From Branchiostoma lanceolatum (taxonomy: Eukaryota > Chordata > Leptocardii > Amphioxiformes > Branchiostomatidae), in NCBI RefSeq assembly GCF_035083965.1, contig NC_089736.1:3119001-3183000 (forward strand): a stretch of 64,000 nt of DNA, read 5' to 3'. The notes beneath the pieces were generated by a model. It ran no database searches. It saw nothing but the letters and a program-made list of their open reading frames with translations, and was not told the DNA's origin. Positions 103 through 26,900 of this stretch are shown in pieces. The translations under genes and the position numbers were made by a program. Positions within the stretch are counted from its first letter, which is position 1, and the number at the start of each line of letters is the position of its first letter.

Positions 103-1442
103 ACCCAGCAACCGTGTTGGGCGATGAGCCGCGCCACCGGCAGAAAAGGAACCTTGTCCAGTTCGGGCTCATGATAACAGCGGTAACCGGACGGAACCCG
201 CTGGACTACAATGACTACGGCTGCTACTGTGGGTGGGGAGGGTCCGGAACACCTGTGGACGACATCGACAGGTTAGTTTTTGTAAAACTTCGCTGTTTGT
301 GAATAGAAATGGCCATATTTTGGGCATATCATGATGTGACTAAGAACGGTATTGTTTTCTGCTGTTCAATAAAGGATATGAAAGCGATTTTTTTGGCGAC
401 GCATCACTGGCTTACAGTTTTTCGCTTAGCTTCCGGTGTGGCATGCTCCTTTAAAAACTAATTGATGAAAATGAGAGTTGCCACATTATTCATTCTGCAG
501 GTGCTGCCAGGTTCATGACGCATGTTATGACTCTGTGTCCTGGCCCAAGATCACTACATACACGTACACTGCCAGTAGTGGGACCGCGACTTGTCGTAAG
601 TTAGGTCCACTTTCCAATAGACGGCGGCCGCTAAGGGACCGTTCAGCGATTAAAGTTGGATTAGTGTAACACTTGATTTCATAACGAATTCGATTTCAGA
701 TGTAAAGGCACTGGTCAATCAGTGGTCAGTCAGTGGTCAGTCAGTGGTCAGTCAGTGGTCACTCATTGGTCACTCAGTGGTTACTCAATGGCCACTCAGT
801 GGTCACTCAATAGCCACTCAGTGGTCACTCAGTGGTCACCCAGTGGTCACTCAGTGGGCACTCAGTGGGCACTCAATGGTCACTCAGTGGGCACCCAGTG
901 GTCACTCAATGGTCACTCAGTGGTCACTCAGTGGTCACTCAGTGATCTCTCAGTGCTCTCAGTGGTCACTCAGTGGTCGCAGCCACTATAGGAAAGGGGG
1001 CGTGGTCATTGAAATATCTTTGAGTTGATATTCAAACCGATAGGTCATTGCGTATGCCAACATTTACAGTTGTGTGCCAAGAACATTCGATTCTAATCAT
1101 ACATGTACCGTATTTTCAACCATTGTCTTGCGTTTTAAGTACTGGATATGCCAACGAACTCAGATACACATAATTTAGATCAGATTCAGTCAGGAAAATC
1201 ATGTAGAAAGACCTGTGATTTCAGTTTGCTCATGGTATCGCCAGTAAAGTTCTAAATGTTTAACACAGCATCATTCCTGTCTTCATTCTAATATTTGACT
1301 TCATTGTTTTTTAACATGCCATATTTGTTGTCCCGTTCAGAGGATGCCCCTGGCACCAACGAGCGCGCGGTGTGCGAGTGTGATCGGGTCGCTTCTCTCT
1401 GCTTCAACAGTTACGAGTACACCGAGAAGAAACCCTGTATCG
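103..1442 (+). CDS. Gene A exons 1-3 in window: secretory phospholipase A2 domain
   Basis: Exons 103-271, 501-595 and 1341-1442 encode a secreted, disulfide-rich PLA2 domain that would hydrolyse the sn-2 ester of phospholipids. The calcium loop [11 protein letters not shown] is followed by TPVDDIDR; the active-site helix reads CCQVHDACY with the His-Asp pair split from the loop by an intron; the later helix has [11 protein letters not shown]. All key catalytic and calcium-binding residues of group I/II-like enzymes are present, so activity is plausible. The domain is entered in phase 1 and left in phase 1 directly into the VWA exon, with no separate stop. A free-standing PLA2 would normally have a further C-terminal part; here it ends soon after a KKPC motif, so the C-terminal wing is short. 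Paralogue gene B lacks the whole block. Confidence 0.85.
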
Positions 1443-4400
1443 GTATGTCATGCCTCTATGTCTATGCATGTCCCCGTGGCACAAGCGGTAACGCAACCCC
1501 GCTGCTTTGCTATCTGGATCAAATTCCGTGGATCCTAGGGCCCGCGTTCGATCCTAGGGGTCGACTCGAGCTCGGACATCTTGTAAGGGATTGCATTCGT
1601 CATTTCGGATGGTGACGTAAAGCCGGCAGCACCGTGTATGAGGGAGCTTCGGGCGTAAGCCTCAGGCGTCAAACCTCTGCAAGTAAAAGAACCCAACACA
1701 CTTATCGAGATGGGTAGGGGTGACCCGGTGTGCTTGGCCAAAAACGCGAGCGGCATTGCACTACCACTAGCTTCTTGAAAAAGCATTATGCTTAAGCGCT
1801 TCACCTCAATTGAATTGAGGATGGCTGCTTTACTTACTTACTTTACTATGGTCACACGTTTCGGTGAAGCTTCAGGGGCAAACCTAAATGTGTAGTAAAC
1901 AGCCGGTTCCAAAAAATTCCAAGTATTCCACAGGTATTTCTGTGATGTTCCGCGCATGTATCGTGGACACCATAACTCGATAATCTGATAATGTCACCAG
2001 CGGATTTTCAGACCGCATACCCGGAACAAGGAGGCTAACCCCCATTGCCCGGAAATAGGTCTCACGGGGCATACGTCTAGATTTTGGACAGTGAGTTTAA
2101 CCAAATGAATAGCACTGAAAACAATGTGATCACAGAGCAGAAATAGCCTGGACCTGCAGACTCCTTACTCATTTTAATGTGCTTTGAACAAATACATTTC
2201 TAAAGGTAAAATTAAGAGTGCTGCGTTGGTACTTTTATTACACAATCTAAGATAAACCCAGACACGTTCGCCATGGCGATACTTTTTCATTGCCACACTT
2301 ATTACCATTTGCTTTGCATTGCCTGGTAAGAACGTGTCGCACATTCGTCTGAGACCTTTCAAGTGTCACAAATAACAGTTATGTCTGTGATCTAATTTCT
2401 AGAACTCGTTTCAGACTCCGAGGGCAATGAGGCAGCGGAAGAGCCCTGCGCGGTGGACATCGTGTTCCTGTTGGACGGGTCCTGGAGCATCGGTCGGCAG
2501 ATATTCGAGGAGGAGAAACAATACGTCGAGGACGTGGTCGGATGTCTCAGCAACGAGGATGTCAACGTAAGGCGTTATTTATATTGACATGTAACAACCC
2601 CTGTATGGTATAATACAGAGGAAAATATATCTAAGAATGTCTAAAAGTTAGAAATTCTTCCAATGATTGTAAAAGTCAATTCTCATCCCATACTGTACAC
2701 TCTCGTATTAGGTAGATTAGCCTTGTAGAACTGTAGCTATGTACCAGTGGATACTATACTTTGTTCCTTGTACAATTGTTGTGCAATAAAGTTATATCAT
2801 ATTTGCTCATGAGGGCCCCTAGAGTTTCATCAATGAGAACAGTTCTTGATGGCTTGCTCTTGTTTAGTAAATGATGTGGAATCGGTGTTTCGATTTTATA
2901 TCCTAAGCAAGGTACACATATATCAGGGGCATCTGCACTATTGAAAAACAACCAGAGGGCTAGCCCCTTCAAGGAGTGCTTGCATATAGCTGTGTGACTC
3001 GGGAGTTATAGAGACGGAGTCGGACAGCGCGCTAGACGCCAAAAGGTTTGCGAAGGATCTTGATAACTGACTTAAGAAGCTTAGAGTTGCATGGCATGGT
3101 ATGGGAAGCTATTTGAGATCTTTTGTAAGGCTGTTGTTCAGTTGTTGTGATTGTATTTCGCCCATGTATACCACAGGTGGGTGTGATCAGCTACCACGTG
3201 TGCCAGAGTGTGGACGTGCCGCTGGCAGACTACGGAAACACGGTGGACCTTCGAAACGCCATCCTCAGCAACGTGAACTTCACGGGAGACCTGGCACGGA
3301 CGGGCGCGGCCATTAGGTACATGAAAGCTGTGGTAAGTGTGACGCATTTCTGTTAGGGCTAAATGCATTTTTACTCTCGTGTGCCATTTGTTTGCGGATG
3401 GACAGCAGAATCTGAGACGAGAAAATATGGATAGATCTTTGGTTTATGGGTACATCTGTATCTGTATAGCCAGTATAACCGCTCTCCCAGCTTCACAGGC
3501 ACACAGAGTGGCAGCAGCTGATTATGTAACAGTGAACGACCTGTCACACCTAACCTTTGCACATTTGACTGCAGGGGTTGTTTGAAGCTATCTAGAGAGG
3601 ATGTCCCTACAGCACTTGATGCTAACGCGTTCCATTTTTTAGAGGAAACGAAATTTTGAACACATCAATCCTAGGTTGATAATTCTTACTGGCACTTGAA
3701 GGCGTGACTAGTTCTAGTTCTTTTCTGAGATGGTATTAGGTACTACTTGTATATGTCTTCAAAACAAATGACAAGTTTGATCATGCGTCTCCTACCGGAT
3801 TTCTATGGTGCTGCAACAGAGCTTCCGGTTTTGATATCTTTGCAAAATCAAAGAAAATCCAGAGTTGGTCAAACTTTTACGCAGCGTAAGTTGCTGTCAC
3901 ATGTTTTGTCCACTGCAGACGAATTTCCGACAGGAGGCGCGTAAGGTGGCCGTGGTCGTGACAGACGGAAGCGAGCAAGCTGCCGAGATTTCTTACGTGA
4001 GTACAATACTTCATATAACGCTGATGAAGGTAAGACATCCAGGTAGTAGGATACGCCAAAAAATAGTTCTTAAGCAACTGGATAAAGTCACTGACGAAAG
4101 ATAGTGAATGCTGTCTGAAATGTCTGGCTGTTTCAAATTTTATCCAATACTTCATATTGGTTTGGAATCCAATCCACTGCATTCATGATTTGTCTTTGCA
4201 TTCAAAACAGAAACATTCTAGATATTTGGCAAGAGATGCCACTTGTATAAGCAATATGTTGTCTGAGTGACTGATATTGAAAGGGTAAGTGGTGGGCATC
4301 TGAAAGGGATACATGTTCTTAAAATATGTCAAATGTAGTCTGTAAAAAGGAGGCTTTAATAGCATAAAGCAACCTGTGTCTTCAACGGAATGGACTCTTG

Positions 4401-4956
4401 TATTTCTAAGATAATAGCATTTCTCACGTTGCTTCTAACTGCAAGCCTTCCAACAAATAGAAGCTCTTAGACTGATTTATACCAAAGCATGTGAAACTTC
4501 TTTTCACTACATTAATCAACGCATTTTGGTCCAACATGTGAAATGTCAAAAGATGCAACTGTGTGTGTGAATCTCTTAGGATCCGGGCCGGCTGATAAGA
4601 GATGCCAAGAGCGCTAGGGACGCCGGGATAGACCTGTACGCCGTTATTGCGGGACGTGACGTGTTCATCCATGACGTGGTTCACGTCATCATCACTGCCG
4701 ACAGCTCCCGCGTTGTGAGCCTGGCTAACGACCATCCCTGTGCCCTCTCCACCAGGGTCGAGCAGTGCGGTATGAGTCTTATGCATCTCTTTCTTACCCG
4801 GCATTATCTGTGTGTGTGTGTGCGTGTCTGTGCGTGTGTTTGTGTGGATGTATGTGTATATGTGTGTATGTGTGTGTGTGTGTGTTTATGTGTGTGTGTG
4901 TGTGTGTGTGTTTATGTGTGTGTGTATGTGTATATATGTGTGTGGGGGTGTATGTG

Positions 4957-5015
<59 letters not shown>

Positions 5016-8000
5016 ATGTGTGCGCGTGTGTGTGTGTCTGTGTATATTTGTGTGTATTTATTTGTATGCATGTATAAAAATTAAGTATAGAAGAACTAAA
5101 ATTGATCTTTTATCAAATTCCCCAGAGCCAGAGGTACACACAGCGCCGTGCAACCCGGGCTGGAGCTTCAATGGGACCTGGTGCAATGGTGAGAGATTGC
5201 CAATCTTAGAGCTAGCTACTAAATGTATAGTACAGATCCTCTTGGGGTGAAGCTTCAGTTGAGAAAATGCAAGTCTAACAAGCAACGTGGGTATCCGTAA
5301 ACAAGGTTATACACAACACGTGACACGTGTACGTTGTTGATTGGGACCTTAGCAGGCTGTAGCTAGTTAGCACATACATTTAGTTCAGAAATGTATTTGA
5401 GTCGATATATGTGTTAAACACATTTACTTGTGTTAACAATTGGCATAACCTCTAACCTCATTCTAACCTATTACTAGCAAATTGACGAGTAAATACCTCT
5501 CACTTATCAAATAATTAGTAAGAGAATCTTTAAATCTCTTACCGTGTTATTGATACGAAAAACCACTAACACAACTTTTTCACTACCTTCGTCTTTTTGT
5601 ATCTTTAACTATAAATACTAACTGTCTGAATAAATGTGCTAAATAATCAGATCCACTTTAACACATACGAATTGTCATAGAGTACAATGCTATCATTCCT
5701 CAACAATGGTGATCCGGTTTTCCTATGCAGAGATCGACGAATGTGAAATCTACAATGGCGGCTGTGCCCAGATCTGTTCAAACACCATCGGCAGTTTCCA
5801 GTGTTCGTGTGAGGACGGCTTCAGCCTCAACTCGGATGGATTCACCTGTCACGGTAGGGCCTGAATTTGATATGCTGATAATATCAAATAAGAAGCCATA
5901 AGAAGCTTTACTAGTCTCCTTCTTTGCATAAAGATGTCAGCTCAATCTAGATTTGCTCCGATACAGAAAGCTTGCCACATACTTAGAAAAGTGCCGATGT
6001 TGTGTAAACTTTAGTTTCATGGACATGATGTGTGGATCAAACGCAAGCAATGCACTTGCTTTTAAAAAGCAGGGGCTTCTGATTTTTTAAATCTATCCTC
6101 AGCCTTGTAGTGTCCAAGACTTATAAAATTAAGATAGACTCTGTCATATATTAACTGCAGGCTTCACTTATGCGCTTACTGTTTTAAATTGTTTGTTTTG
6201 TTTTGTTCGATACCTCAGCGATCTACACGGCCCCGTGTAACCCTGGTTGGAGCTTTAACGGTACATGGTGCAACGGTAAGATCTCACTTTATCTTCACCA
6301 TCTACTTTCAACTAATTACTGAAAAGCAGCAAATGTAAGGGGTGATGCCAAGGGAAAAGGCAGTCCTCAATAGAATGAAGTGTAAGAACACATTCTGTGC
6401 ACAACTTATAATTATTAAGCTAGTAGTAGTAGAGTAGAGTAGAAACCTTTACTTTCGTTGGGCGGCCCTGCACAACTACAGTGTATATACATGGCCGTTC
6501 TTCCCAGAGGTCCATAGTGGAGGGGTTTATTGGCTGATTACAAAGAGTCTCTCAATGTTTAGATACTCAGTTATTTTTCTGCAGAGATTGATGAGTGTGA
6601 GACCGACAATGGCGGCTGTGCTCAGATCTGTTCAAACACCATCGGCAGTTTCCAGTGCTCCTGTGAGGACGGATTCAGCCTCAGCTCGGATGGATTCACA
6701 TGTGACGGTAAGATTTGAACTTTTTTTGCCATTAAATGGGAATTCAATAGTTTTATATACTTAATGTGCGCAATACATTTGCTTTTGAAAATAGGGGATT
6801 CTGTTTCTTCATATATTTTTAGCCTCATGGTGATCCAGCACACAATGAACATTAAATTCCGTCCCATACCTACTGCATGATTCATTTATACACCCAGTGT
6901 TCTAGCGATATTCTGTTTTGCTTTGTTTGACACCTCAGCGATCTACACGGCCCCTTGTAATCCCGGTTGGAGCTTTAACGGTACATGGTGCAACGGTAAG
7001 ATCTCACTTTATCTTCACCATCTACTGGCAACTAATTGTAGAAAAGCAGCAAATGTACGGGAAAATGGTACCAAGGAAAAAGGCAGTCCTCAGTAGAATG
7101 AAGTGTAAGAACACATTCTGTGTACAACTTATTAAGTAAGTAGTAGTAGGAGTAGTAGAGTAGAGTAGAAACCTTTATCTTCCTTGGATGGCCCTGTCGA
7201 CCCGTACAACTATACACATGGCCGTTCTTCCCAGAGAAACAAGAGGAGGGGGGTCGCCATGTCTCCCAATGTTTAGATACTCAGTTATTTTTCTGCAGAG
7301 ATTGATGAGTGTGAGACCGACAATGGCGGCTGTGCCCAGATCTGTGCGAACACCATCGGCAGTTTCCAGTGTTCGTGTGAGGACGGATTCAGCCTCAACT
7401 CAGATGGATTCACATGTGACGGTAAGATTTGAACTTTTTTGCCATTAAATGGGAACTCCATAGTTTTATATACTTAATGTGCGCAATACATTTGCTTTTG
7501 AAAATAGGGGATTCTGTTTCTTCATATATTTTTAGCCTCATGGTAATCCAGCACACAATGAACATTAAATTCCGTCCCATACCTACTGCATGATTCATTT
7601 ATACATCCAGTGTTCTAGCGATATTTTGTTTTGCTTTGTTCGACACCTCAGCGATCTACACGGCCCCGTGTAACCCTGGTTGGAGCTTTAACGGTACATG
7701 GTGCAACGGTAAGAGATCACTTTATCTTCACCATCTACTGGCAACTAACCACAGAAAAAACGCAAATGTAAGGGAAAATGGTGCCAAGGAAAAAGGTAGT
7801 CCTCAATAGAATGAAGTGTAAGAACACATTCTGTGCACAACGTATTAAGTTAGTAGTAGTAGTAGAGTAGAGTAGAAATCTTTACTTTCCTTGGATGGCC
7901 TTGTCGGCCCGTACAACTATATACATGGCCGTTCTTCCCAGAGGTCCAAGTGGAGGGGGGGTTATTGGCTGATTACAAAGAGTCGCCATGTTTCCCAATG

Positions 8001-11000
8001 TTTAGATACTCAGTTATTTTTCTGCAGAGATTGATGAGTGTGAGACCGACAATGGCGGCTGTGACCAGATCTGTTCAAACACCATCGGCAGTTTCCAGTG
8101 TTCGTGTGAGGACGGCTTCAGCCTCAACTCGGATGGGTTCACATGTGACGGTAGGACCTGAATCGGATATGCTGATAATGAGCCATAGGAATCTTTACTG
8201 GTCTCCCTTCATCTGCATACAGAAGTCAGCTCAATCTAGATTTACTAGACATAGCTTGCCTCCGGATTTTAACTTTAGTTTATATTTCCCATTGACTCCA
8301 GCATGAAGAATCCTGCCTATAAAAAAGGTGGCCATCTGTCTATAGTGACAATGTTCTTCAAGTACGCTGAGTGGTGATTAGATACTGGTCAGACTGTAGT
8401 TAAAAAGTGTCTACTCAATCTAAATGCTTAAGATAATGTAATGGATGCTGCAGTAGATACTTTTTGCACATGCTCAAAACTACTGTCTGATAAAAAGAAC
8501 GATTTCTAAAAAAAAAGTACTGTCTGAAATGTTGCATAATCTGCAACTATTAGAAATGCTTCATTGTACAATGCGTTTTTATGCCACCCAGTACATATCA
8601 CTACATCGAGTACATACACCACCAAGCGAAGCATGCATGTGATGACATTTCTTATCACTTTATTTTCATTCTTAATTTTTCCAATTTGTTATCCAGAAAT
8701 TTTGCTGGGAGGGCCATTCCCACCGCCGCCTCCGATGCCACCCGTCACGGAACAGCCACCACCTCCTCCACCTACAACCCCACCGCCACCGCCACCGCCA
8801 CCCCCATACCTAGGTATTTGTTAGTCATCGATATTGAATAACGAACATGTAATTTCATATTGTCATTTACCTACGGCAGAGAGTCACAACTTATTTATTA
8901 AATTTAGATCAATGAAATTGATCAGTAATTCATTTCATTGAAATAATATCTTTGTCATACCAGTGAACGAGTCTGTTACCTTGGGACATGTACAATATTG
9001 AACTGACATCTTTGCATGGGTAAGGGAGTGAGATATGCCGTATTAGCTCTCAGATGTTGACTGTCTTAGTATAAAATATGTTACCTCTTTATCACTGCCA
9101 TGGGGGTGTCCCTGTGGTGTAGTGGTATGCGCCTTTGCTACTCTGCCACATCTTGTTCAAATTACTTGGACCAGAATGACTGGGGTTCTAGCCCCAGGTA
9201 GGGTACCTCTGGACAAGAGGAGCAATGAGTACTTTATGAAAATGGTACATATTCATGAAACAGTATGGAAGTAAAACACACTCCACTGCCAGTGGACTAG
9301 CCCCCTGCTGCAGTGATTGCACCACAGTGTGGCCCCAGGGCTATGAAACGGAGATGGGCACCACCCTATACATCAATTATGGTGTGGGATGATTTTAACT
9401 TAACTTTATCACTGACATGTTGATCTCTATTTCTACAGGCACTCAATGGCTGCCAATATTTGCGACCGTGAAAGGGACGGGACAGAAGGCTGTGGACGCC
9501 TGGAGTGCTGGCGCCGGTGTTAATGTCTTACACGACAAGAGCCCTTTGGTTGAGCAGTGGGGATCGCTTGGCATCAAGCGGGTACGTTTGTCTTTGATTC
9601 CCGTCTTGTACGTTTTGTGACGGATGCTCAGATGTTTGGCCTTAAGTGCTTGCTTTGTTTAACTGACTTACTCTGTCCACTTTGTTTAGATTTCAATCTT
9701 TACGAATGCCATTTGTTTTGTTTTTAAGACTCAGCATTTAAGATTTTGAAGCTTTTGGTCATTGAAGGTTTATGTCTACTAAACATTCATCATTATTCTT
9801 TTGGAGCATCACTATCAATTACGTACCCTTTTGGAAATGCCTGTGCCACACAGCATTACATTAACCTATAGGAACCCAATGGCATACAGACTTCTTTTGA
9901 AACATGTTTATTTCACTCATGTGTGAGCCACTCTGTTGCTTATCAGCCAGGACAGTTTTACCAGGTCAGCTATGTGTCACGGACACATGTATTGGATAGG
10001 TTTTATTCATTCATAAGATGAAACATAGTAAACAGCATGAAAACACACTGCCATGTTAATTGATCACGATTTAACGTTTGTCGTTCTACCGTTATAGGTG
10101 AAGATCGTATTGGAGGCCCCCACTGGAGATGTCGAGTTGATATTCAATGGAGAAAACACAGACAAGTACAGCTGGTTCTCCGCGGCTCGCCTACTCTCAT
10201 CACCGTGGACTGACATTAATACTGAGCCTAACAACTTCTTTTCAGTTGCAGGAGACCCTATGTGGGAACGGTAAAGCTTGTTCCTCGAGCTGTGTATCAA
10301 TTCACTGGACTCTTCCTCTTGTACAATGCATGTACTTATATATTAAATTGTATTTGTAATTTCTTGCCCGAGGGCTAATTGCAACATGAAACAATGCATA
10401 GAAAAAGTATACAAGATAACAATGGTGGCAAGTGGAACAAGTGACTATTCTAAGAACTGCTACAGAATACAAGGGACTATTCTAAGAACTGCTAAAGAAT
10501 ACAATCTACGCTTTTTGGGTTTGACTTCTTTTTTGTACCTTCTTTGTTTTCTGATTGTTTGCATATTGAATATTCATAGACTGAGATGTTAAAGACTGGT
10601 AATTTCTCTCACACTTACCCTTTTTGTCATTGTCGATGCAGAGCCTTCTTCATCAGTCGGAGCTACGGCAGCTGTCCCTATGACTTCGGTTGGCTCGTGT
10701 TGGCAGAAGGAAATGCTTGTACATGGGAGCAGACGCCTCTGAACCAACGACCCTACATTTTGTTTTCTCGAGAAACTACGAACGTCAATTGGAACGATGG
10801 TAGGTTCTACATTTTATAGACTACCTTATCTTTTATTTTACTAAACCATAGATATCCAATAAAGGTAAATATAGAACCAATTAGCACAAGCTATGATGAA
10901 CTCCCTAAAATGTTCCCTACATCCCCAAACTACAAACTTGCAAAATACAACAAATGCTGCTCATGTATACCCAGCCTTCCTTGCAGTCAATCCTGATAAT

Positions 11001-11872
11001 CTATTCATGTATATCAACACATGATAACTACTTGTTGGACCTTTTGTTATTTCTCTTTCATATGAGCTGTTGAAAATCTTTTCAGAGGCTAATGTTGGAA
11101 TAGCCGATCGCATGGTCATTTACATCGAAACAGGTAGACAATTCCTTTAGATTCCATCTTTATCAGCATTGAGTTGTACGCTTTTTAACGCTTGGTCACT
11201 ATATAGACTCGTTGCCTGGAGTTGAAAATAGTTGATTCAATCGAAGTCATCGTTCAGATACGCTGAAGTCATTGATAAGATTGATAAGAATGCTTACGAT
11301 ACTGCAATGAATACATTTGTACCTGCAAGCAAATCCTCAAAACTACCTTCTCTGGCGGTACATAATCTGCAACGTGTAGAATAATGACTAATCAATTCGA
11401 AATGATTTTTGTACTTTGGGTTTGTGAAGTGAAACATGTATATGCATTTTACTATCATGTTCTCCTATCCTATTCTCTGCCCATTTTGACTCTTAATTTC
11501 TCTATTTTGTTATTCAGAACTTTTACCGGGAGGAACCTTTACTGGGACCTTCCAGGACGTCCTTTTCAGGTGTGTCAATCAACTGAAAATATCCTCCATT
11601 TTGTCGGCAAATGCAGGCTTAAGTATTGTAACTGCAACCTCCGTTTGTAGCAGTGATTCATATATTCCTGGTAACAATATTCTTCTCTCCTCAATGGAAC
11701 TTTGAGCCATGAAACAAACAGTTAACTACATTCACAGCAGTGGTGAATACTAAAATGGTAAGCAATACACCGGCACAAGGTTATGCCTCTTCTTAGAGAT
11801 AGCTGATCAATTCAGAGAAGAACAAGGTCACATGCCGGAGAGAGACACACACATAGACACAGGCACACACAA

Positions 11873-11904
<32 letters not shown>

Positions 11905-11919
11905 AGACACACAGACACA

Positions 11920-11962
<43 letters not shown>

Positions 11963-14900
11963 CTGCATCATTCTCCATTTTTCATGGAGATAATAACCAA
12001 AGCCATGCCTATCTTCTTTTGCAGTGCTCTGCAGGACAAGGTCGAAGGTACCCTGGACAGCTTCGTGAAGGAAGCCAAGGAGGGACTGAACAGTGCCGGC
12101 AGCGCCATAACCAACGCGCACCAAGCGTGTGATGCTGCGGTGGCAGCCTTTAATTCAGCCCAGGCTGATGTAAGTTATCATCATCATCATCATCATTCCA
12201 GGGCGTTGTCACTCATTTCGAGGAACCCCTCCCTTGACCGACTCCAGTCTTTTCTAAGTCCAGCAGATATTGGCCATGTAGGGCCCAGTTGTTTAGCTAT
12301 TGGGCCGCCCTCGTCGTCTCCTCCACTCCACTAGGTGTCATCTCAGTGGCTCTTATCATCCACCTGTTGTCCTGTAGCCTGGCTACATGTCAGACTGCCC
12401 TGTGGTGTTTTGCTGTGTTGACAGCATTGACCATGTCAGTTACTCCTGTCTGTACTCGGATCCAGGAAATAATCTAACACATTCTGTGTTTGAATTAGAT
12501 ATGATAACGCATGTGTTTGATGTTTGCCATGTGTCTATGCCATGGCTATGTTTTATATGAACATATTGGCCAAAAAGGCACCCATCTATCTATTCATCAA
12601 AAACTAGAAGTAGAAAAATACTGTGCAATAGTTTATTCTACTTCGTTGAAATAAACTGGCCCTGCATCATCTATTACAGGTTGACAGTGCACAACTTGAC
12701 TTTGACAACGCTGTGGCAAGTTTGGAAGGTGCAACACAGGACGTGGAAAATGAACAAGCGAAGTTCGACAGCGCTATAGCTGATCTGGAGGAACAGCAGC
12801 GAAACTGCCAGTTCCGTGACTGTGAATGGTGTAAGGCATTCTTTATATTTACATAGCTTGGCATTTATGTACAGTGGCACTTCATGTCTAACTATCAAAC
12901 TACTACATCACCAATCATGTAGACCCAGAATCATGTACTTGCAAACAGCATGGAGTCAATTATATGAATTCATATCCAGTAAAATTGTCACTACCATAAG
13001 TATTGCATGTTGTGATTACTTACTACAGATGAATAAGTAGTCTTCTAACCATTGAGGTAGAGGTTTAAGTAGTAGCCAATTTTGATGTATAGATAGTAAG
13101 AAAATAGCTGAATTTAGTCTATTTACCTATTGTTGAATTGTAGGGGATGCTCCGTGCCATGCCATCAATGCTGGGCTAGCGGTGTGCCAAGCTGCTCTTG
13201 AGGTAAGGTCAATCATGCAACTTTGGTGACCAACTAGATAACTTTAAGTGGGGCGATTAAAGCTTAACTGTAAACAGACTGACAAAATGACCTATCCTAT
13301 ATTTTTCAACCAAAGCCACATACACAATCTTACTAACATCACTACTGTGTTGTTTGGCACTACGGAATGTTTGTATGGAGATACCAAGTGATATGTTTTT
13401 CTTATACATGTATCAGTGCTATTCCATTCCAATAAGCAGCTTCGTCTTGGTAGTCCTAAGAAAATGTTTAATTTCAATGCAGCTCTACAATTATAGTATG
13501 TAGTGATTCCAAACTTATATGCATGCTCACACTGCAAACTAGATTGCCAAGGGGACGGTAGAAGCAACCAAACAGACGCTAGACGTTGCCAATGTTGCCG
13601 TCACCGCTGCTGAGACAGTGGTGGACAGCAGCCGCTTGGCTCTTGACGCTGCAAATGCTGTTTTGGAGGAAACAAAAGTCTCAGTGCACGATTCGTGCGA
13701 GTGAGTCGAAATACTCTCGTGGGTTTCGTGGATTAATCCACACCTTCCCAGTAGCACAGAATAAACACTATGCTGAGCCTATGCCTTGTGTTAAGATCTA
13801 AAACTGATGTCAGGCTGGTAAAGTTCTTATAATGTACAGGACTTTTCGATTTGATCCAACCGTGGTCACCTGTATGCAGTGACAATTGCATCAATCCTCT
13901 AAATGATTTTTAACGTTATATACAGGTTTGACTGTACTTGAGTATACTTTCAGTATTCATAACTAGATGGAGTGATGACAGGCATTGTGTCAATGGAAAG
14001 GATATTTTTCACGCCTTCCAATAATATTACCAAGACGCGGTGGATTTGACAACCCCTACATATATGGTCTCAATACGACTATTGAACCTTTACTATTTTA
14101 TTTTTTTCAGTATTGGCGTCGCCGCTGCCGAAGAGACACTGGTTGCCACACAGGAGAGCAACGCATTTGGCATCGGAGTGGCAGAGAAAGTGGGTGAAGC
14201 CCTGCACAGCCTCGTGACGGAGGCCACAGAGGCATTGGACAGTGCCCGCAATGACGTCAGCATCGCCCAGCAAGCATGTGACGCCGCAAGGGCAGTCTTC
14301 AATTCTGCATATGCTGACGTGAGTTTTCGGATTTTACCAGCATACAAAAACTGAATTAATGTCAATGTTACAGACACAATTATGTGCATCTGTTGAAGCC
14401 ACGCTATCATCTATTCCTATTCATCAACGACAATTAACAAAAGAAACTTAAACACTGTACATTGCTCAGAATGCTTTATAAACCAAGACCTGATTGTTTA
14501 TCGTTTATCACAGGCTGGCAGTGCACGACTTGACTTTGACAACGCGGTTGTGATTTTGGAGGGTGCAATACAGGACGTGGCGAATGAACAAGCGAAGTTC
14601 GACAACGCTGTAGCGAACCTGAATGCACAGCAGCAAAACTGCCAGTCTCGGGACTGCGAATGGTGTAAGCTTATCTCAGAATTCATCTTCAGCACCACTT
14701 CTTGTTCAACTATCAAACTAGAATATCATTACAGCACCAATCATGCACAACCTTGTACTTTTAAACGCCTTGAAGTAAATTATACAAATTCATGACATGA
14801 AATGTTTAAATAGATAATATTGATGACATGGTGTGATTGGGTGGCATATAAAACATTAATTCTACATGTGCAGGTGAAAGAGCCGTATTCCGACGGTAAG

Positions 14901-17900
14901 TTTTTTTGTAACAGCCAATGTTGATGCATTAGTTCTGTCATATACGAGTCATTCATATTCATAATTCAGATACGAGTCTAAATTCTGTTGGATTCCAGTT
15001 GATGTTGCGTGCCAAGCCGAACTTGCAGCGTGCCAGGCTGCTTTAGAGGTAAGGTCAATTATGCGATATTGACAAGTGAAATTAATTTTATCTATTTGCA
15101 AGTTCTTGCCCGAGGGCTAATTGCGATATGAAACAATGCATAGGAAAAGACAAAGTTAACAAGTTAACAAAAGTGACAAGTGGGACAAGTGACTTTCTAC
15201 ATTGTAAGAACGACTACTGAATACAATCTAGTAAGCATTTTGGGTTTGACCTCTTTCACCCCCATGAAACTCCTTATGGGCCGTACCCGGTCTTATGGGC
15301 CGTACCCGGTAAAATTATGGGCCGTACCCGGTCTTATGGGCCGTACCCGGTAAAATTATGGGCCGTACCCGGACTTATGGGCCGTACCCTGTACCTATGG
15401 GCCGTACCCAATGGCCGACATCGCCCGGCCACAGGGCGTAGTCGCGTGAAAGTCGCGTCTAGATACCCTGTACCGCAACGATACACAATCACACATAGCC
15501 TATGCTCTGGCAAACATTCCTGGCCACCTCTCTGCCGAGTGGCGTTGTACAAATCGCCCCCAATTTCGAGAACACTCACGCAAGCTGTGGCGAGATGCCG
15601 GCTGCAGTGCTCGCGTGGGGTCGAGAAACCCGGAAGTGATGCTGTTCTATGGCGGGAAATTTCCTTTTTACCCAAGTTCAGTCCAGCCGGCAGGTGCAAC
15701 GGAAGGTTGGTGAAATGTCTAGTGAATTTAGACTATCATTCCGTGAAATATACGATTTGGTAACGCACAATGGAATCACCTGTTTCTAGAATTCTAGCCA
15801 ATGTCGAAACAACAGGAATCAGATGGATTACAATAGAGATATAATCTCTGTCCACAGGGTTCTCTGAATATACTATCATATAGGGTGGGAGAGCACACTA
15901 GATCTGAGTGTAGTGGACCGAACCTCAGAAGCAACCTTTTTTTGGTGTTGTATACTGGAATTATAGGTACTAGAATTTGTCATTAAATTTGATTGCAACA
16001 ATAAACATGGCATTTTGTATACAAATAATTTGACCATCCCACTGCTACCACTGCCAAAGATGAATTCAGGTGAAGAACCCCCAGACGCAGTTGTCACAGA
16101 TGATGCCGATCCACCACAAATTGTAGAAGGACAGGAAACAGGTGCCACAACTGCAGGTGACCTTTCTTTATTCAATTATTTCTGTGAATATACAGTATAA
16201 CATGTATGTATAGAGCATTGGAGAATATCTACTTTCATATACTTGTTTCATTGTATCATTCAATATTGAAAAAGTGCATTGCATGCGCATTGTTACATCC
16301 CTGTGTACCACAATTGTATGACTCTATTTCTCTTAAAACCAGTGATTGATAGCTTGGGTACCAGCGTCATAGATAACTCTGGGAGGATTTGCAATATGAG
16401 TGAATAACAGGTGTCAGACTGAGTGAAATTTTCTTCCAAATTTACAGTTACTAATTATAAGAAGTTGACAGTAAAAGTACATAGTTACATGTCAATGTGT
16501 TTTATTCAGATTTTTAAGTTGTTTGTTGGTACTTTTTTTCTTTTGAGCCCTTCACACTGTCACATATTTTGTATACATAAACAAACTATGTGTGCATACT
16601 AAAATAACAGATATCTCACTTCTCCCCTTTTAGAATCAAACATCGTCTTGTGTGACATCTGTGGGGAAAATATACCTGCTTCCCACTACAGAAGACACAA
16701 CCTCAGACACAGAGCAACGTTTACTTGTGAGAAATGCTCTACATCCTTTCATGACAAGTTTGCACTAAAAAAACATGTAGACATTCAGCACAATAATAAA
16801 GTACTAGTCTGCAAGGAGTGTGGCAAGAGTTTTAAGTCATACTCTGGTTTCAGGCAACACTGTTTCATACATGAGTCCAAAGAGCACACCTGCACAACCT
16901 GCAAACTGACATTTGCAAACAAAGTAAAGTTGTACCACCATCGCCGGAAGGCCCACGCCCCACAGAAGACATGTGACCACCTGAAGATCCATCAGCAGGC
17001 CAAGGATCACAAGTGCACGGTGTGCACTGCTTCTTTCAAACAGAAACAAAGTTTGAAAAGACACTTGAGCACACATGAAGACCCCAAGACCTGTAACATG
17101 TGCAGTAAAAGCTACCAGGGAGCGAGGCAGCTCATGCGCCACATGGCAACAGTGCACAAAAATTCTACTGATTGATCATACAAAGTCATACGTTACATGC
17201 AGCCCCTAATTATGTTCCATATCTTTAATCATTAACCATGTAAGTCCTGTAAGATCTGAACAATATGCAATTACTTTTTCAAACTAGTACTCAAATCAAT
17301 GAATGATTTTGACAATGCGACAATCATTCCACTTTGAAATAAGATAATGTTTGGCAAAATGGAGAAAAAAATTACCTTGAAATTTTGAATACAGCAGTGA
17401 AGTTTACTTATAGAAGACCAATTCGCTCATGAGGCAGGATCTTTGAAAGATCTGTTCTATGGTACTGCCTTACATCAGTCTGCCCCTTTAAAGGAGCACC
17501 AAGTTTAGTAGAAAAAGTCTTCGTTGGTTTCTTGCGGCGTGCCCTTGATGTCAGATCAAAGGGATGGTTTTTTGCCTTCACAAGAGCCAGCCTAGTTGGT
17601 GGTTCCCACTGTTCAGGGTGGTCTGTTTCTGTAAAGATGGCATCTGTACTTTGACAGGGGTAGACAGGCTTGCTACTTGTCGTTGGGGAATCCACGGGCC
17701 CTGAAATAAAAAAAAACAATTAAATTACTGTTACTACGGTACTTAATGTGTTATAACTTTTAAGCATAAGGTTTACAGATATAGAGTAATAAACTGTGAC
17801 TTTATTGGCAAATAGTGTGTCATGGATCAATGTCCCTTTGAAATTCAAGTTGTTATTGATTTCTGCTTTCCTACTGAATGAATGACTCTTTTGTAGATTA

Positions 17901-20900
17901 GAAATTATCACAATCTACAAGAACAAAAATGGACAAAAACCACCACATGAGCACACATGAAGACCCCAAGACCTTATAAGATCTGTGATTGTAGTGATAC
18001 AATAATGCTGCTATCAAATTCTGCCAGCTGAACACTATACTTTCAAATTTCTGTATGAATATTGCATTGGTTATGTGAGAAGGATTTTAATGTCTTACTC
18101 CAAATAGGTTTACCCAGGTTTGTTTGTGAGTCACCTGTACCCATAAGTACTGAAATCTTCTTTTGCCAACTAAGAGTTCCTTGTTCAACGGGGGCTGGTC
18201 GTCTGAGTGCCCAACTTGGCCGGGGATGATAAGGGAGTCAGACAATGTACCACTTTCCTTTTGGGAAAGGGGATGGCAGCATATGTCCTTTTGTCCTTCT
18301 TTCCAAGATGGAGCTTGATAGGCTTTTTTCTTGTCATTGTGCAATACTCTGGAATGAAGATTGAACAAGACAGTCAAAGATGTTAGAGAGTATTAAACTA
18401 GAAACAGTTCATCTTCACCTAGAGTTTTAGCAATATGCTGTTGTTGTTGTCTCTATTACACCACTGTCTCGTCGGTATATGGTCACTTGTGCAGTGCAGC
18501 ATGCTCGGGCTCCCTGTCATGCTACACCGCCCTCCCCCCTTCCACGCTTTACAAACAAATCAAATCCCCTGTAATCATAATAACAAGAACATTATCTTAC
18601 GTTACAGTGACTCTCTGTTGGAGGAGTGACCTAATAGGGCGGTAATAAAAGTTATATACCATGGATGAAATTGTGAAATGCGTACCGATAGCAAGGAGCT
18701 CGAGAGTTTTGTCCGGATCCACATAATTTTTGTTCGCGACGCCTCCCACACAACCCAGATGATGATGATGATCGATGCGAAGCTCACTTCCGCGTTTCTC
18801 GACCCCACGCGAGCACTGCAGCCGGCATCTCGCCACAGCTTGCGTGAGTGTTCTCGAAATTGGGGGCGATTTGTACAACGCCACTCGGCAGAGAGGTGGC
18901 CAGGAATGTTTGCCAGAGCATAGGCTATGTGTGATTGTGTATCGTTGCGGTACAGGGTATCTAGACGCGACTTTCACGCGACTACGCCCTGTGGCCGGGC
19001 GATGTCGGCCATTGGGTACGGCCCATAGGTACAGGGTACGGCCCATAAGTCCGGGTACGGCCCATAATTTTACCGGGTACGGCCCATAAGACCGGGTACG
19101 GCCCATAATTTTACCGGGTACGGCCCATAAGACCGGGTACGGCCCATAAGGAGTTTCATGGGGGTGTCTTTTTCTTTAATGTGAGTAGCCGATGCGGACA
19201 GTCTGAGAAGAATAATAACTGCCACAGCTATTGCATCCAATTTAACATGTACAATTTTGCTAACATAATTACAAAACAAATCATATTGGAAACATTGGCA
19301 ATCTTTGCTAGAAGGTGTAGGCCATTATATGTTACATGTTATAGCACTGCTTTTTTCCGTTTTTATAGCAATATTTGAGACAATTCAGGATAATAATCCA
19401 CAGTTTAAATGCAGTATATATATGTTAAACTTTACGTTATGTTCCAGGTAGTAAAGGTGACAGTGGAAGCAGCCAGGGGTACACTCGGCGTTGCCACGGC
19501 GGCCACTACAGGTGCCCAGCAGGTGGTAGACACCAGCCGCAGGACACTGGACGCCGCCATTGGCGTTTTGGAAGGAACAAGAGTCAAAGTCCACCAGTCA
19601 TGCGAGTAAGGTCTTTCTGGGTTCTTTCTAATGTGACATACTAGTACTATGTACTAGTACTAATCTATCATATTTTGTCTGCTGTTGTATAGGACATCCC
19701 CACATTCATGACACAAAGGAATTAGAATCTAGGTATCCAATGATACTTTGTAGGACCATGTATATAAAGTGTAGAACTAACTTGGCCGAAAACGCGAGCC
19801 GTAGCGAGGCCGCATTGCACTACCACTAGCGACTTGAAAAAACATCATGCTTCACCTCAAATGAAGACGCCTTGAAACAAACGAAATATACATAAATGAA
19901 CAGCATCTTAAGATGTCATGAGTATGTTGTCCCTATTTTTAACTGAAGACTGAATATCATCTAAAACTCCTTAGCCACATAGATTAGATTTACGGTCACT
20001 TCTAATTATATTCAGTATTGGAGTCACGGCTGCAGTGGAGACACTAGCCGCCACCCGCGAAGCCAATTCTTTTGGCCTCGAAGTCGCGGAGAAAGTCGAG
20101 GCAACCGAAGACATCGTCCTGAAGAAAGCCACCCAGGCCTTGGACTCTGCCCGCGGTGACGTTAGCGTCGCCCAGCAAGCATGTGATGCTGCAAGGACAG
20201 ACTTCAATTCAGCACAGGCTGATGTGAGTTGTCAGATTGTACTAACACTCAACCATAACTGAAAGTATCTTACTGTTGCGGAAACCCAGTGTATTTTTGC
20301 AGTCGCTATATCATACCTGTTTAGCGACAAAATCATTCATCAACGAAAACGAATAGAAAAGACCATGATACCCTAGTTCACCCAATGTGGCTTCAAAACG
20401 ATTTCAAAAAAACGGTCCTGTGTTATCTTCCAGGTAAACAGTGCACAACTTAACTTTGACAACGCAGTTGCAAGTTTGGACGCTGCAAATCATGCGTTGG
20501 AGAGTGAAAATGCGAACTTCGACAGCGCTGTAGCCGATCTGGAGGAACAGCAGCGAAACTGCCAGCCCCGTGACTGTGATTGGTGTAAGGCATTCTTCAT
20601 TCCTACATACACTAGCTTCAAGGCTCTCCACATGCATAATAGAACTCTTCTTCTCCATCAATATTCAATGGCGACATTCACTGAAACGCCATGATACCGA
20701 ATATTCATTTTCATGCAGATCCTTATAACATGGATGCACATAATGCAACTAGGCATAGTGTGTTGTATTCCCTCACAGAGTCTGCATAGCGACTTTTCCC
20801 TGTTCGCCCATTTGTACGTTTCCATTTACCTATGAAACTGGTCCTTTTTGTCATTTTAGACAACTTGGGGCAGTGGTATATCTAATGCTGATATATTAGT

Positions 20901-23900
20901 CGTAAAAGAGACATACTTGAAACACCATTTAAGTGAGTTTACCCGTTGTTGAACTGTAGGGGATGCTCCGTGCCATGCGTACAATGCCGGACTTGCAGTG
21001 TGCCAGGCTGCTCTAGAGGTAAATCCTATCATGTTGTCAACAAATAAACATTCCTAAAATTAACGGCTTACTAAGAGCAACTTGAAACCAATTTCAGATG
21101 TCTAATCTAGAGATATCGCTATAAAGTGACTTGCAAGTGGGGACTATCGACATCTTTGCGTGAGGAAAGAAGCTCATGCCTTTCTTGCACAACTTCAATG
21201 CCACAGGCACAGCGGGACATATTTTCTTCTTTCTATTAGATTGAAAAGTGTTTTTTAAAAACATTGGATGTAGTCCCACATGGATCATTTCAACACCTTT
21301 GTTTCTACTGCTTACTAGATTGCAAAGGGGGTGGTTGAAGTAACCAGGCAGACACTGTCCGCTGCCCAACTGGCCGCTACAGCTGCCCAACAAGTGGCGG
21401 ACAACAGCAGCGGGACTCTTGATGTAGCAAAAGGTGTTTTGGGAGTAACAGAAACCGCCATGCACGGCTCCTGCGAGTAAGTACCAATATTTTCTTGTTG
21501 GATGCAAAACCTTCCCAGTTTGATATAAGGCATTTCATGTAAGCATTACCTAGTATTGTGTTATTTACTTTAAAGATTATATGAGGATTTAGATACTTGG
21601 GAATAGACTTGGCAGCTGTGAGCCAATTATTTTCACCTGATTTGGTGTAGTCTATTCTAGGCTTTAATCACATTCAGGAGCAGTTGCGCACCATATCATC
21701 TTATAAGGTAGAAAATCACACGACCATACAGGATGCATGCTGACAGGAAAGAAATTGCTCAAATTATCCTCTATCGATGATCAACTTTTGTTCTTGCCTA
21801 TTTTCAGTATTGGCGTGTCCGCTGCAGAGGAAACATTGGTTACTGCACAGGAAATGGCAGAAAAGGTAACTTCCGCAGGAAAGCTGCCTCATTTGTCAGA
21901 ATTATTTTACCCACTTTCAAATTTTGTATTCGCATTGTCTGTTCCCTCCATCTGAAATTGTGGTAAATGTGATTAAGTAAATGTGTCTACCATACAACTA
22001 TAATGTTTATAACTTCTCTAGTTTGGAGTATGCTATAGTTACAGACCGTATCAAAGTTACAGACTGTATCAAAGCAGCCTCATCTAATGTGCATTTATAT
22101 ATAATTATAAGAGCTTTTAAAATGCATTCTGTCTTCGTCATTATTTTTTAGGCAACACTCAGGGTTCTGGGAGGAGTGCTGGATATTCAGGACTTAGGTT
22201 TCAACGTGTTGGACATCCTTGAGATGGGCCTCGGTGCAACGGCGGCCGATCGCGAGGCAGAGACTGGCAGCATAGACGGCTGGATGATGGCCTCGTTCTT
22301 CGGGGGCAATCCTCTGGTTAGTGTATCAATGGAATAAGTGTTTGTGTACTGTATATATGTGTATCTTGAAGCATACTGAAGCATGATACCGGTTGAATTT
22401 TAAAGTTGACAAAGTTGTTACAACTTTTACATCTTATCCAGATGACGAGCATTCCAATCAACATCCTCTCCATTGACGACATGGCCAGCTCCGTCCTTGT
22501 CATGATCCAGGACCTCCTGGGTTTGTAACCACTTCGTTTGTCCAATTTTGTCCAATTTCTTTTATTCTTCAGTCCGCAGAGAGGTTTGGCGAGACTATTA
22601 GTAAGAAAACGGTAGCTAGAATTGGGCTCATTCCATTCCAAATCAACATTTTCCCTGTTGTCTGCATGGTGTCATAATGCTCTGAATTTGATTAAGAAGC
22701 TGAATGGCAATTATTCCTACATTCATGTTTTCCATTTTGTATTCATCGTTTCCAGTCTCTGTCTTTAAGGCAATGCCTTAACTTCTATATCTTGTCATAC
22801 AGGTGGCACACAGCCACCCACGCTGTCCCCACCGCTGCCACCACAGCCACCAACTGCCATGCCCGAGCCACCGGCACCGACAACCCTGCCCGGGCCGTTG
22901 GCACCACCGACAACCCTGCCCGAGGCACTGCCACCGACCACCCTCGGGGAACTAGGCGTGTCATCAACGACCACCCTCGGCCGCTGGGCCTTTGGCGATC
23001 CACCACCGACCCCCCTGCCCGAGACCACTTTGCTCTCACAGCCACAACCACCCGCATCAGGTGTCTTCACTTGATTCGAATATTTAAATGACATGAGCAT
23101 ACAATTATAAGAGGCCAAGACATAGCAAGAAACACCAGTAATGTGTTTCACCAGTATGATCTAGGGTCCAAGGCATGCCCCAAACAGTACAAACAAACAA
23201 CATATATTTCAAAATCATAATCAAAATTACTACTCCGATCCGTTTACATACACTTCCCACACGAGAGGAGGGTCATGCAGGCACAATTCTTTGAGGAATG
23301 TCTAAAAAATGAACGAAGCCTTTATCACATGTCTGAGTACTTTCTCATTGTGTTTCTTTTCCTCGTTCTAGGTGGCATCCTTCCCGAGCTTCAACAGCTT
23401 CTCACCGACGCAGTGGAGGGTTCCTACACCGTCAGCCCAGACTGCACCGTCATCCTAGCGCTCAGCGGATGTCGACTCGACATAACTTGTGACCCTGAGT
23501 TTTGTTTGACTGTAGGCTTTCTCCTTTCAGATGTCCTTCCAAATCTGTCGCTAGATGACTATAGGAGCGGTGTCGCTTCTGATCTGCTTAACGTCGCAGT
23601 CTCTAGTAGCTATGTTGATCGATGTGAAGATGAATTATCTATTTCAGGAGGCACCACACAACCTATTGCTATCGTACCCTCTGTCGCGACGCTTCATGAA
23701 TTTTCTGTCTTTGTCACATACACTCTACCCTCCTCTTTCAATGCCTTGTTTAGCGGTGTGTGGTCCATTGGCGATGTCGACTTCACGGTGACATTAGAGA
23801 AATCCGACGACGGTTTTACTCTCAGTGGCACGGTAGCAGAAATTACAGGTGTCACCACTGACAGACTTATCACAGGGCTAACCTCGTTTGTTCCTGGTAA

Positions 23901-26900
23901 TGATGTTAGCGATTTATTCCACCTACTAAAGCTTGACAGTATCTCTGTTACAGACATAAATGTTGAGGTTATGATCGTGGACGGTGGATACAGCTTAGAA
24001 CTGGACTTCAAAACAAACATTCTCGACTCGCAGGTCTTCTTTTTCCTTAGCTCAGCTCAGGCAGATGACGGTTCGACTACTCAGTCGTTTTCGATGGGCA
24101 TGTCTGTCAAGTCTGTCCGCTTTGGCGATCTCATCCGAGATGTGGTCGATGACAACGTTGTTGTTCCTATCATAAGTGATATAATTATTCCCGAGGCCGC
24201 CTTGCTGGGAACGACTTCAACGCCAGAGCTTGATTATCCGGTACCTCTTCTAAACGAGGTGGCTTCGGAGCTGTCGAGTGGGTTGGGCATTGCCTTCACA
24301 ATGAAGCTCTCTGATGATGTTCCATTTGGGACGTTCTTTCTCGGTTTTGACGGCAACAGTTACATGTTTAAGGTCCTTTCTGACGAGACAGTCCCTGTGT
24401 CCGCTCTGCTGAGCAAAGTGATAACCTCTTTTACGTCAATCAGTCTTCCAGCTCAGTTACCTGTTGCAGATGTTCTAGCCGGATCCCTGAAGAGCTTCGA
24501 ATATGACACAGATACTGACGTCATGACAGTAACTGCCGATGTGGACGACACTCTAGTCATAATAGAAAACGTCCTCGTTTTGGAGGATTTAACAGCATCA
24601 TTCCAGCTAGAAAAGCAGTCACCATCTTCAGGAAATAGCTATGATTTTAGTTTTGAATTAGAATCAGTGTGGACCATTGGTCAGTTAACCGTCGCTTTGT
24701 CGGTCGCCAGAGATCCAACAACACTGGACTATTCTGCAACCGGTTCTGTACAAGATGAGTTGCCTGTAGGCGCCCTGATCCAAGAGTTCGGTGCGTCGTT
24801 TTTACCACTCGGTCCATTAAGAGATATTTTGCTTGGAATCGGCCTCGAAGACTTCTCTATTGTAGACCCCAGTGTATCAATAATGTTTGGTCAGGAATTT
24901 GCTGTCCATCTTGGTGGAAGTGCGGTGATCGGTGACTGGAGTAGCACTGTCGAGATGATAGTGGGCAGGGTGCAGAGCAACCTGGTCATGGCGGCAGGCG
25001 TGACGTTGTCAAACATTGGCATAGTTCCGGCCGTTAGCAAACTTACTGGAGGCGCACTAGACATTTCAGTAATTCCAGGAGCAAGCATTTTGTCGCAAAC
25101 TAGCGTTGCCTTTGCGGTGTCTCCTAGCACAATGCCCCGAGATCAGCACTTGACAATGTCGTCCCCGCTACTTGCTGATGTAAACATCAACCAAGGAGTC
25201 AGTATTGCAGCATCTTTTACGCTCCCAGCAGACTGTGGTCAGGACTTTTTTTGCAAGGTTGTGAAAAAGCTGCTAGGAGCTGACATTGAACTCAATCTTC
25301 TTGCGACCCTGACCACTGTGAGTGACCTGTACATGAGGGCGGTGGTGGGAACCCCGGTGTCTCTCGCTGATGGTATTGTGATGCAAGATGTAGGGTTCGA
25401 GATTGAGGTTGGGACCACCAATAATGCCATAGGTATAACTGGCTCACTGGAATTTGAAACCCCTCCTGTGATCTTGAGGGGCGGTATTGGAGTCTCGCAA
25501 AGTGGAGGGTACCTCAGAATGTCTTCCGAAGGGATGTGGAACGAAGCGTTCGGGCTTGATTTCCTCGCAATCGGTGACATAATCTTTGAGCTGTCAATTA
25601 CTCCTGAGCCCACTGTCATAGCGTCTTTGGAATTTGGTGGCCGTGCTATAATTGGATACCAAAACAACCCCAGTGCCACCACCATCGAGGGCTCTGCGTA
25701 CATAGGAGTGAACAAGATAGATCCACGACAGAACTACTGCTCAGGCTCTATCAGTGTTCTGACCGTCCCTGCCATTCTCCGTGCTTTCGGTCAAACCTTT
25801 CAACTTCCGTCTTTCTTGGAAGAAATCGGTTTTCCTGACGGAGCCAGTATTTCGTTCTCTGCAATAGAGCAAACCCTTCCGAACGGTGTAACCATCCCTC
25901 AAGGATTCTTCTTCAGTGGTACTCTACAAATCCTCTCCTTCAGCGTGAGTGCAGACATAAAACTTGACTCGACCTCCCTGTACGCCAAAGTCACAGTGAG
26001 CTCATTTGACATCGGTAACGGCTTGATCCAGATTTCTGGGTCAGGTTCCGAAACTGGCCCTATCCTTAAAGTCGACATCAGCTGGATTCCGATACATGCA
26101 GAGCTACTCATCGACGGTAGCGTCACCGTACTCGGCATTCACGCCAGCACAATCATTTCTATGGATGCATCCAGGACTTACTTCTACATCGAAGGGAGCT
26201 TCCTCGGTATGTTCTCAGCATCTCTCGAAATAGAGGCCAGCTATGGATCTCTGAAAGAAGCTCACTTTTCAGCAACTGGGACCTTCAAGAACGACCTTTT
26301 CAGGTCTGTTAATCAACTCAAAACAGCTTTTTCTAATAAAATGTACATCTAAGTATTATAATCACAACCTGAAGTCAACTAATCATAATCTGTACGTGTA
26401 GCAGTGATTCATGTACCATTACCCTTTATTAGGTTGCTCCGAATGTTTAAACTACATCAACGGTTACTTAACATGTTATGGTAGCAGGTAATACAACGGT
26501 ACACGGATATGTCTATTCTCGAATCACAAAGAGATACCGAAGCTGTTTATCCTTTTTTTAGTACTCTGCGAGACAAGGTGGAAGGAGCCCTGGACAAACT
26601 CGTGAAGGAAGCGAACGAGGCCTTGGACGGTGCCAGGAGTGACGTCAGCAAAGCTCACCAAGACTGCGATTCCGCGAGAGGACCCTTTAATGATGCTCAG
26701 GCTGATGTACGTTGGTAGAATCGTCATTTGAAAGCCTCCAAATTGTGCACAGCTTTGAAGTATGACATAAACTAAATTTACTAAAGGAACTGAGTATCCG
26801 ACACATCAAAGAAAAGGATTAAATCTTACAACGATCATCTTACTGTCCTTTAGACTCTAGGAGAAACTCAGAATTATACAAAACACAATTGTCATAATAT

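Follow-up and report, generated by a model that had tools for sequence, protein, structure and literature searches.

Within the window (the whole 64 kb stretch of Branchiostoma lanceolatum DNA that was analysed), three exons of a secreted-type phospholipase A2 (PLA2) lie on the plus strand directly upstream of a long gene with VWA and EGF modules, here called gene A, and a related copy, gene B, lies on the minus strand. The first PLA2 exon (103-271) is entered in phase 1 and left in phase 2 and encodes a propeptide with an RQKR site, the mature N-terminus and the Ca2+ loop. The second (501-595, phase 2 to phase 1) encodes the catalytic helix with CCQVHDACY, and the third (1341-1442) encodes CECD and the last cysteine and is left in phase 1 at TCG/gtatgt, a donor position one codon and one base beyond the last Cys codon. 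AG/GT borders are found throughout, and the phase series is 1-2-1-1. The start of gene A is upstream of base 103, its 5' end is outside the window, and the PLA2 signal peptide would likewise be encoded before base 103, largely beyond the edge of the window. The intron separating the second and third PLA2 exons contains an 11-bp tandem repeat of 24.5 copies (712-978, plus strand), which sits in a 124-codon frame free of stops.

Judged by its sequence, the encoded domain is an intact-looking secreted phospholipase A2, for which calcium-dependent sn-2 hydrolysis is predicted. The match to Phospholip_A2_1 (PF00068) has E=3.9e-29 and 101.8 bits against a curated cut-off of 32.1 (Pfam, 835-aa model of the joined exons), and the motifs YGCYCGWGG, CCQVHDACY and CECD are found at residues 39, 58 and 100; the Ca2+ loop, HD pair and CECD contained in them are taken as functional residues of the enzyme. 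At E<=0.001 the PLA2 part matched 153 distinct PDB sequences (best 4.7e-31), and among the 60 matches listed 55 are named 'phospholipase A2' and five carry other venom-protein names. RQKR, which we take to be a furin-type site, stands immediately N-terminal to NLVQF, and NLVQF corresponds to residue 1 of the PDB chain in the three alignments shown. The Ca2+ loop and HD pair are common to this domain and to conventional secreted PLA2 (PF00068, group I/II type), but the PLA2 at this locus has only ten cysteines, an even number whose pairing is presumed from the usual PLA2 numbering, and it ends in a splice donor and not in a stop codon. Compared with 1vip, it is without the cysteines before CY in HDCCY, after KVK and before KRAVCECD.

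The VWA part of gene A begins with an exon at 2415-2566 (plus strand), entered in phase 1, in which a linker of 27 bases precedes the VWA start with DGSWS; the linker (2415-2441) is acidic, stands right behind the acceptor and is missing from gene B. Further VWA exons on the same strand (3177-3332, 3919-3996 and 4580-4769) are followed by a hinge exon and an EGF exon, repeated four times (5126-8150) with every exon in phase 1-1, and then by a Pro-rich exon, a 174-aa stretch, a short exon and the first coil-like exon recognised by eye (8697-12169). The 174-aa stretch is made up of four exons (9439-11133, GTQWLP...IYIET) and was matched by no Pfam family, nor did any PDB sequence reach an E-value below 0.77. 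The reading frame continues from the third PLA2 exon into the VWA exon at 2415 (phase 1 to phase 1; neighbouring exons agree in phase by chance about one time in three), and the PLA2 module is symmetric (1-1), as are the EGF and hinge modules. The joined model from PLA2 to 12169 has 22 exons and 835 codons with no stops, and eight Pfam families were matched in it. VWA (PF00092) was found by two Pfam models (best E=3.1e-21; 76.8 bits against a cut-off of 23.8), with DGSWS at residue 143 matching the DxSxS pattern of the MIDAS motif. Four EGF-type models each matched four stretches, and a match to ANATO is marginal (22.3 bits where the cut-off is 21.4, with no single stretch passing alone). In its order of VWA and then EGF repeats, with segments downstream that look coil-like by eye, gene A resembles the matrilin-like VWA-EGF matrix proteins. 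Unlike matrilin, gene A has a PLA2 in front and Pro-rich and unclassified modules behind, and Matrilin_ccoil (PF10393) is not among the eight families of the 835-aa model, which covers the exons to 12169; the large exon downstream of 12169 gave no Pfam match either.

Gene B begins with a signal-peptide exon (47881-47944, minus strand) that starts from ATG 47944 with the Met in frame and is left in phase 1. The next exon is the first VWA exon (47197-47321, minus strand), which is entered in phase 1 behind tgtttcag. Between the beginning of VWA and the first EGF, 222 of 244 codons encode the same residue in A and B, and over these 244 codons dS is 0.26, dN 0.044 and dN/dS 0.17. These values indicate that the VWA-EGF part is under purifying selection and that the copies are fairly recent, and gene A therefore has the look of a functional gene, for which a start is required. 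The similarity of the two genes in DNA begins at the VWA exon (2440 in A, 47323 in B). Within bases 1-2414 of the A side no clear match to the signal exon of B was found (the best score was reached by 33 of 100 shuffles), and the first introns of A and B gave no clear alignment (score reached by 13 of 200 shuffles), yet the next intron aligns with a score of 130, where the highest of 50 shuffles scored 30. In the visible sequence the 5' ends of A and B thus appear unrelated, and the absence of PLA2 from B therefore says nothing on the direction of change. An earlier note on this DNA had proposed that the PLA2 exons enter and leave in phase 1 and splice in frame into the VWA exon, that the signal exon of gene B splices in phase 1 straight to its VWA exon and that the lipase is apparently intact, and the phases, the exon order of B, and the Ca2+ loop, HD, CECD and PF00068 match agree with this reading. 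The presence of PLA2 in A and its absence in B, which the same note had stated, hold within the window, where tblastn (E up to 10) found the three exons in front of A only and the next match had E=2.5.

The gap of 972 bases separating the PLA2 and VWA exons (1443-2414, plus strand) holds a signal-peptide-like segment at 2262-2325, also on the plus strand. It consists of a hydrophobic frame and one extra base, and it ends at the donor CTG/gtaaga in phase 1, which is the phase taken by the VWA exon at 2415. No other stretch of the gap is strongly hydrophobic (12-residue mean above 1.9), and donor 2325 is the best of the gap both in a model trained on the window (9.32) and in a generic model (4.91). 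Because the signal-like segment ends on the best donor in the matching phase, the VWA part of gene A probably has, or at some time had, a first exon of its own, of the signal type, between PLA2 and VWA.

A scan for such segments, designed after this one had already been noticed, was run over all 64 kb of the window on either strand. With window-trained donors (a model made from 19 donors of gene A), a donor score of 8 and a hydrophobicity of 2.2, three sites were found, namely the segment at 2262-2325, the real signal exon of gene B and a site at 54954 without a Met. Generic donor weights, which were textbook frequencies and were applied later, gave five sites in the window at a threshold of 3, and the two with a strong-context ATG were again the segment at 2262-2325 and the start of an LRR gene near 59921. 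No site, including 2325, passes at a threshold of 5, and the signal donor of B (2.75) fails at 3 or more. In random sequences of gap composition, preserving nearest-neighbour composition only, segments of this kind turned up in 2 of 600 and 4 of 1000 trials (15 of 1000 at looser settings), and when the ATG context was added in 0 of 600 and 0 of 1000 (1 of 1000 at looser settings).

The strong-context ATG, at 2273, does not share the reading frame of the hydrophobic stretch in the given sequence. The hydrophobic frame is read from 2262 and a second frame from 2264, and the frame of ATG 2273, when joined to 2415, runs into an immediate stop. A sequence error or a rare allele may explain this offset, or a coding exon further upstream, spliced at 2262, may circumvent it. 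Frames are open throughout the 22 joined exons of A, in the six exons of B that were compared and in the large exon of either gene, so that broken frames are not a general fault of the assembly in this region. Inclusion of 2262-2325 within a PLA2-VWA transcript, as an internal exon, was considered and rejected, since it would be entered in phase 1 and left in phase 2 and would break the VWA frame.

The splice sites that would join the two parts are of uneven quality. Among 4100 GTs donor 1442 ranks 42nd in the small window-trained model; with the generic model it scores 1.72 against 4.91 for 2325 and is sixth within the gap, but the donors modelled at 595 and 4769, with 1.15 and 1.09, are no stronger. 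Acceptor 2415, which scores 0.54 and comes 798th among 3810 AGs, is weak, and it is required whether the two parts are fused or separate. At least ten AGs of the gap score above it, including 1934 (7.35) and 2136 (4.73), which would give the PLA2 a tail of 16 and 3 residues, respectively, and then a stop. Neither AATAAA nor ATTAAA is present in 1443-2414, and the variant poly(A) hexamers there are AGTAAA (1682 and 1894), AATACA (2191) and GATAAA (2251). ATG-led candidates for a first exon ending in phase 1 number 11 in the gap at a length of at least 12 aa and 13 at a length of at least 8 aa. The most hydrophobic, from ATG 1821 with its donor after 1863, reaches 1.55 compared to 2.32 for that of B, has a donor score of -0.03 and is an unlikely first exon; its hydrophobicity was matched in 120 of 1000 random gap-like sequences, which is the level of chance. 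A B-box-like GTTCGATCC at 1546 was considered for a SINE origin of the gap, and neither ARAGORN nor Rfam found a match in the whole window.

Taken together, the locus looks like a PLA2 gene placed head-to-tail with a VWA gene, the two possibly joined by splicing past the first exon of the VWA gene. That a PLA2-VWA transcript exists we consider somewhat likelier than an even bet. The fuller reading, in which two neighbouring genes produce a secreted PLA2-VWA-EGF fusion enzyme and the disused signal-peptide exon is still recognisable in the joining intron, is held tentatively and falls a little short of an even chance. According to it, a secreted-type PLA2 gene would lie directly upstream of the VWA-EGF gene A on the same strand, the segment ending at 2325 would be the own first exon of the VWA gene, coding for its signal peptide, and the third PLA2 exon would skip it and splice in frame to 2415, the second exon of the VWA gene. 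The out-of-frame signal segment would then be a leftover that fell out of use when the start came to be provided by the PLA2 gene upstream. For some stand-alone secreted PLA2s a cleavage that frees the N-terminus is necessary, and in the secreted precursor proposed here cleavage at RQKR would free the PLA2 N-terminus, with the C-terminus staying tethered to VWA, the EGF repeats and the further modules. The enzyme would remain attached to the VWA part because no furin-type cleavage site was seen by eye in the linker between PLA2 and VWA. Tethered in this way, an active PLA2 could have as its targets membranes or particles to which the VWA part binds.

Several features favour this joining: the symmetry of the PLA2 module, its phase-1 exit just past the last cysteine with no stop before the donor, the high rank of donor 1442 among the GTs, the lack of AATAAA and ATTAAA in the gap, the conserved downstream gene that needs a start while its own has the wrong frame in the given sequence, and the chance level of the other ATG-led first exons. 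In human cells, cis-spliced fusions of neighbouring genes favour the splicing of the second-to-last exon of one gene to the second exon of the next, with both genes on the same strand and less than 30 kb apart, according to PMC4450057. The present locus is likewise on one strand, within 30 kb, and the splice would run onto the apparent second exon of the downstream gene; here the fusion could also be a fixed one of the genes and not an occasional transcript. Against the joining stand the generic score of donor 1442 beside that of 2325, the weakness of acceptor 2415, the better acceptors at 1934 and 2136, the variant hexamers of the gap, and the chance that the frame offset of the ATG is bypassed or goes back to a rare allele or an error in the sequence.

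The strongest alternative, which we regard as a serious minority possibility, is that of two ordinary neighbours, in which PLA2 ends in a short terminal exon within the gap, VWA starts at the signal exon ending at 2325 and no fusion protein is made, the frame offset at 2273/2280 being a matter of the assembly or an allele or bypassed upstream. It would account for a signal-like segment with a phase-1 donor that is one of only three such sites in 64 kb, for the short tails that stop behind 1934 and 2136, for the hexamers, AATACA included, and for the modest generic donor 1442, and gene B shows this very layout without PLA2. It fits poorly with ATG 2273 lying outside the hydrophobic frame and stopping immediately on VWA, with the missing AATAAA and ATTAAA, and with an intron of only 89 bases between 2325 and 2415. 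In secreted PLA2 genes the whole C-terminus is normally in the last exon, and an extra intron right behind the last cysteine seems unusual for them. Four exons and three introns are given for snake IIE PLA2 genes in PMC4280545.

It is unlikely, although consistent with the phases, that both products are made, an upstream promoter giving the PLA2-VWA chimera and the inner first exon a plain secreted VWA protein. The exit at 1442 and the hydrophobic frame ending at 2325 are each phase-compatible with 2415, and splicing between neighbours is described as rather frequent in human prostate cells in PMC4450057, which supports this reading, but the inner start is out of frame in the given sequence.

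The earlier note had called the locus a textbook exon-shuffling insertion, which the sequence does not establish. Phase-1 entry is not by itself evidence of shuffling, because an ordinary PLA2 gene would have phase 1 at its border of signal and propeptide. A phase 1-1 PLA2 cassette that entered a B-like ancestor ahead of its VWA exon and behind a signal exon now lying upstream of the window seems quite improbable, since, despite the matching phases of the cassette and of the signal and VWA exons of B and the homology of the 3' flank (VWA) in A and B, no signal exon or flanking intron common to both is seen in 1-2414 while the next intron aligns, the signal-like segment of the gap stays unexplained, and loss of PLA2 from B is as possible as gain in A. 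Of the fusion proposed in the same note, the fitting phases and the possibility of in-frame joining stand, whereas the gap turned out to hold what looks like the VWA part's own signal-like first exon.

Neither secreted PLA2 nor VWA-EGF proteins are unusual in themselves, and their union alone would be new. A PLA2 fold is built into an extracellular matrix protein in the otoconin-90 type of matrix proteins, which are not known to have VWA or EGF; compared with these proteins, the PLA2 at this locus retains its catalytic residues. A weak search of the open-access literature gave no PLA2-VWA-EGF protein named in the titles or abstract openings of the matches listed, and the string 'phospholip' is absent from PMC11788884. 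If the junction is real, the locus would present a new domain pairing, a catalytic secreted PLA2 with a VWA-EGF protein, with its origin visible through the old first exon in the joining intron. If it is not, the locus calls for caution, as gene models may report a novel multidomain protein where two genes lie.

Further downstream, a large open stretch of about 990 codons is found in both genes (23372-26352 on the plus strand in A, 39982-42981 on the minus strand in B; 85% identical). It gave no Pfam match, and a fold from the two sequences gave no usable model (mean pLDDT 29.3). A Pro-rich segment with phase-1 borders, recognised by eye at 22803-23060, stands just ahead of this large exon, which suggests that gene A is one gene of about 30 kb, from VWA through coil-like repeats into the large exon. 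Between these parts, an inverted repeat pair (15257-15643 and 18781-19166) is 99.5% identical, far above the likeness of the A and B genes, and flanks a C2H2 zinc-finger ORF (16603-17175); the pair and the ORF are perhaps a recent mobile insertion. Near the VWA genes lie also two LRR proteins and a TNF-family stretch (52310-52906, 59855-60748 and 54054-54353 (-); the TNF-family match has 23.9 bits against a cut-off of 23), giving the VWA genes an immune-looking neighbourhood.
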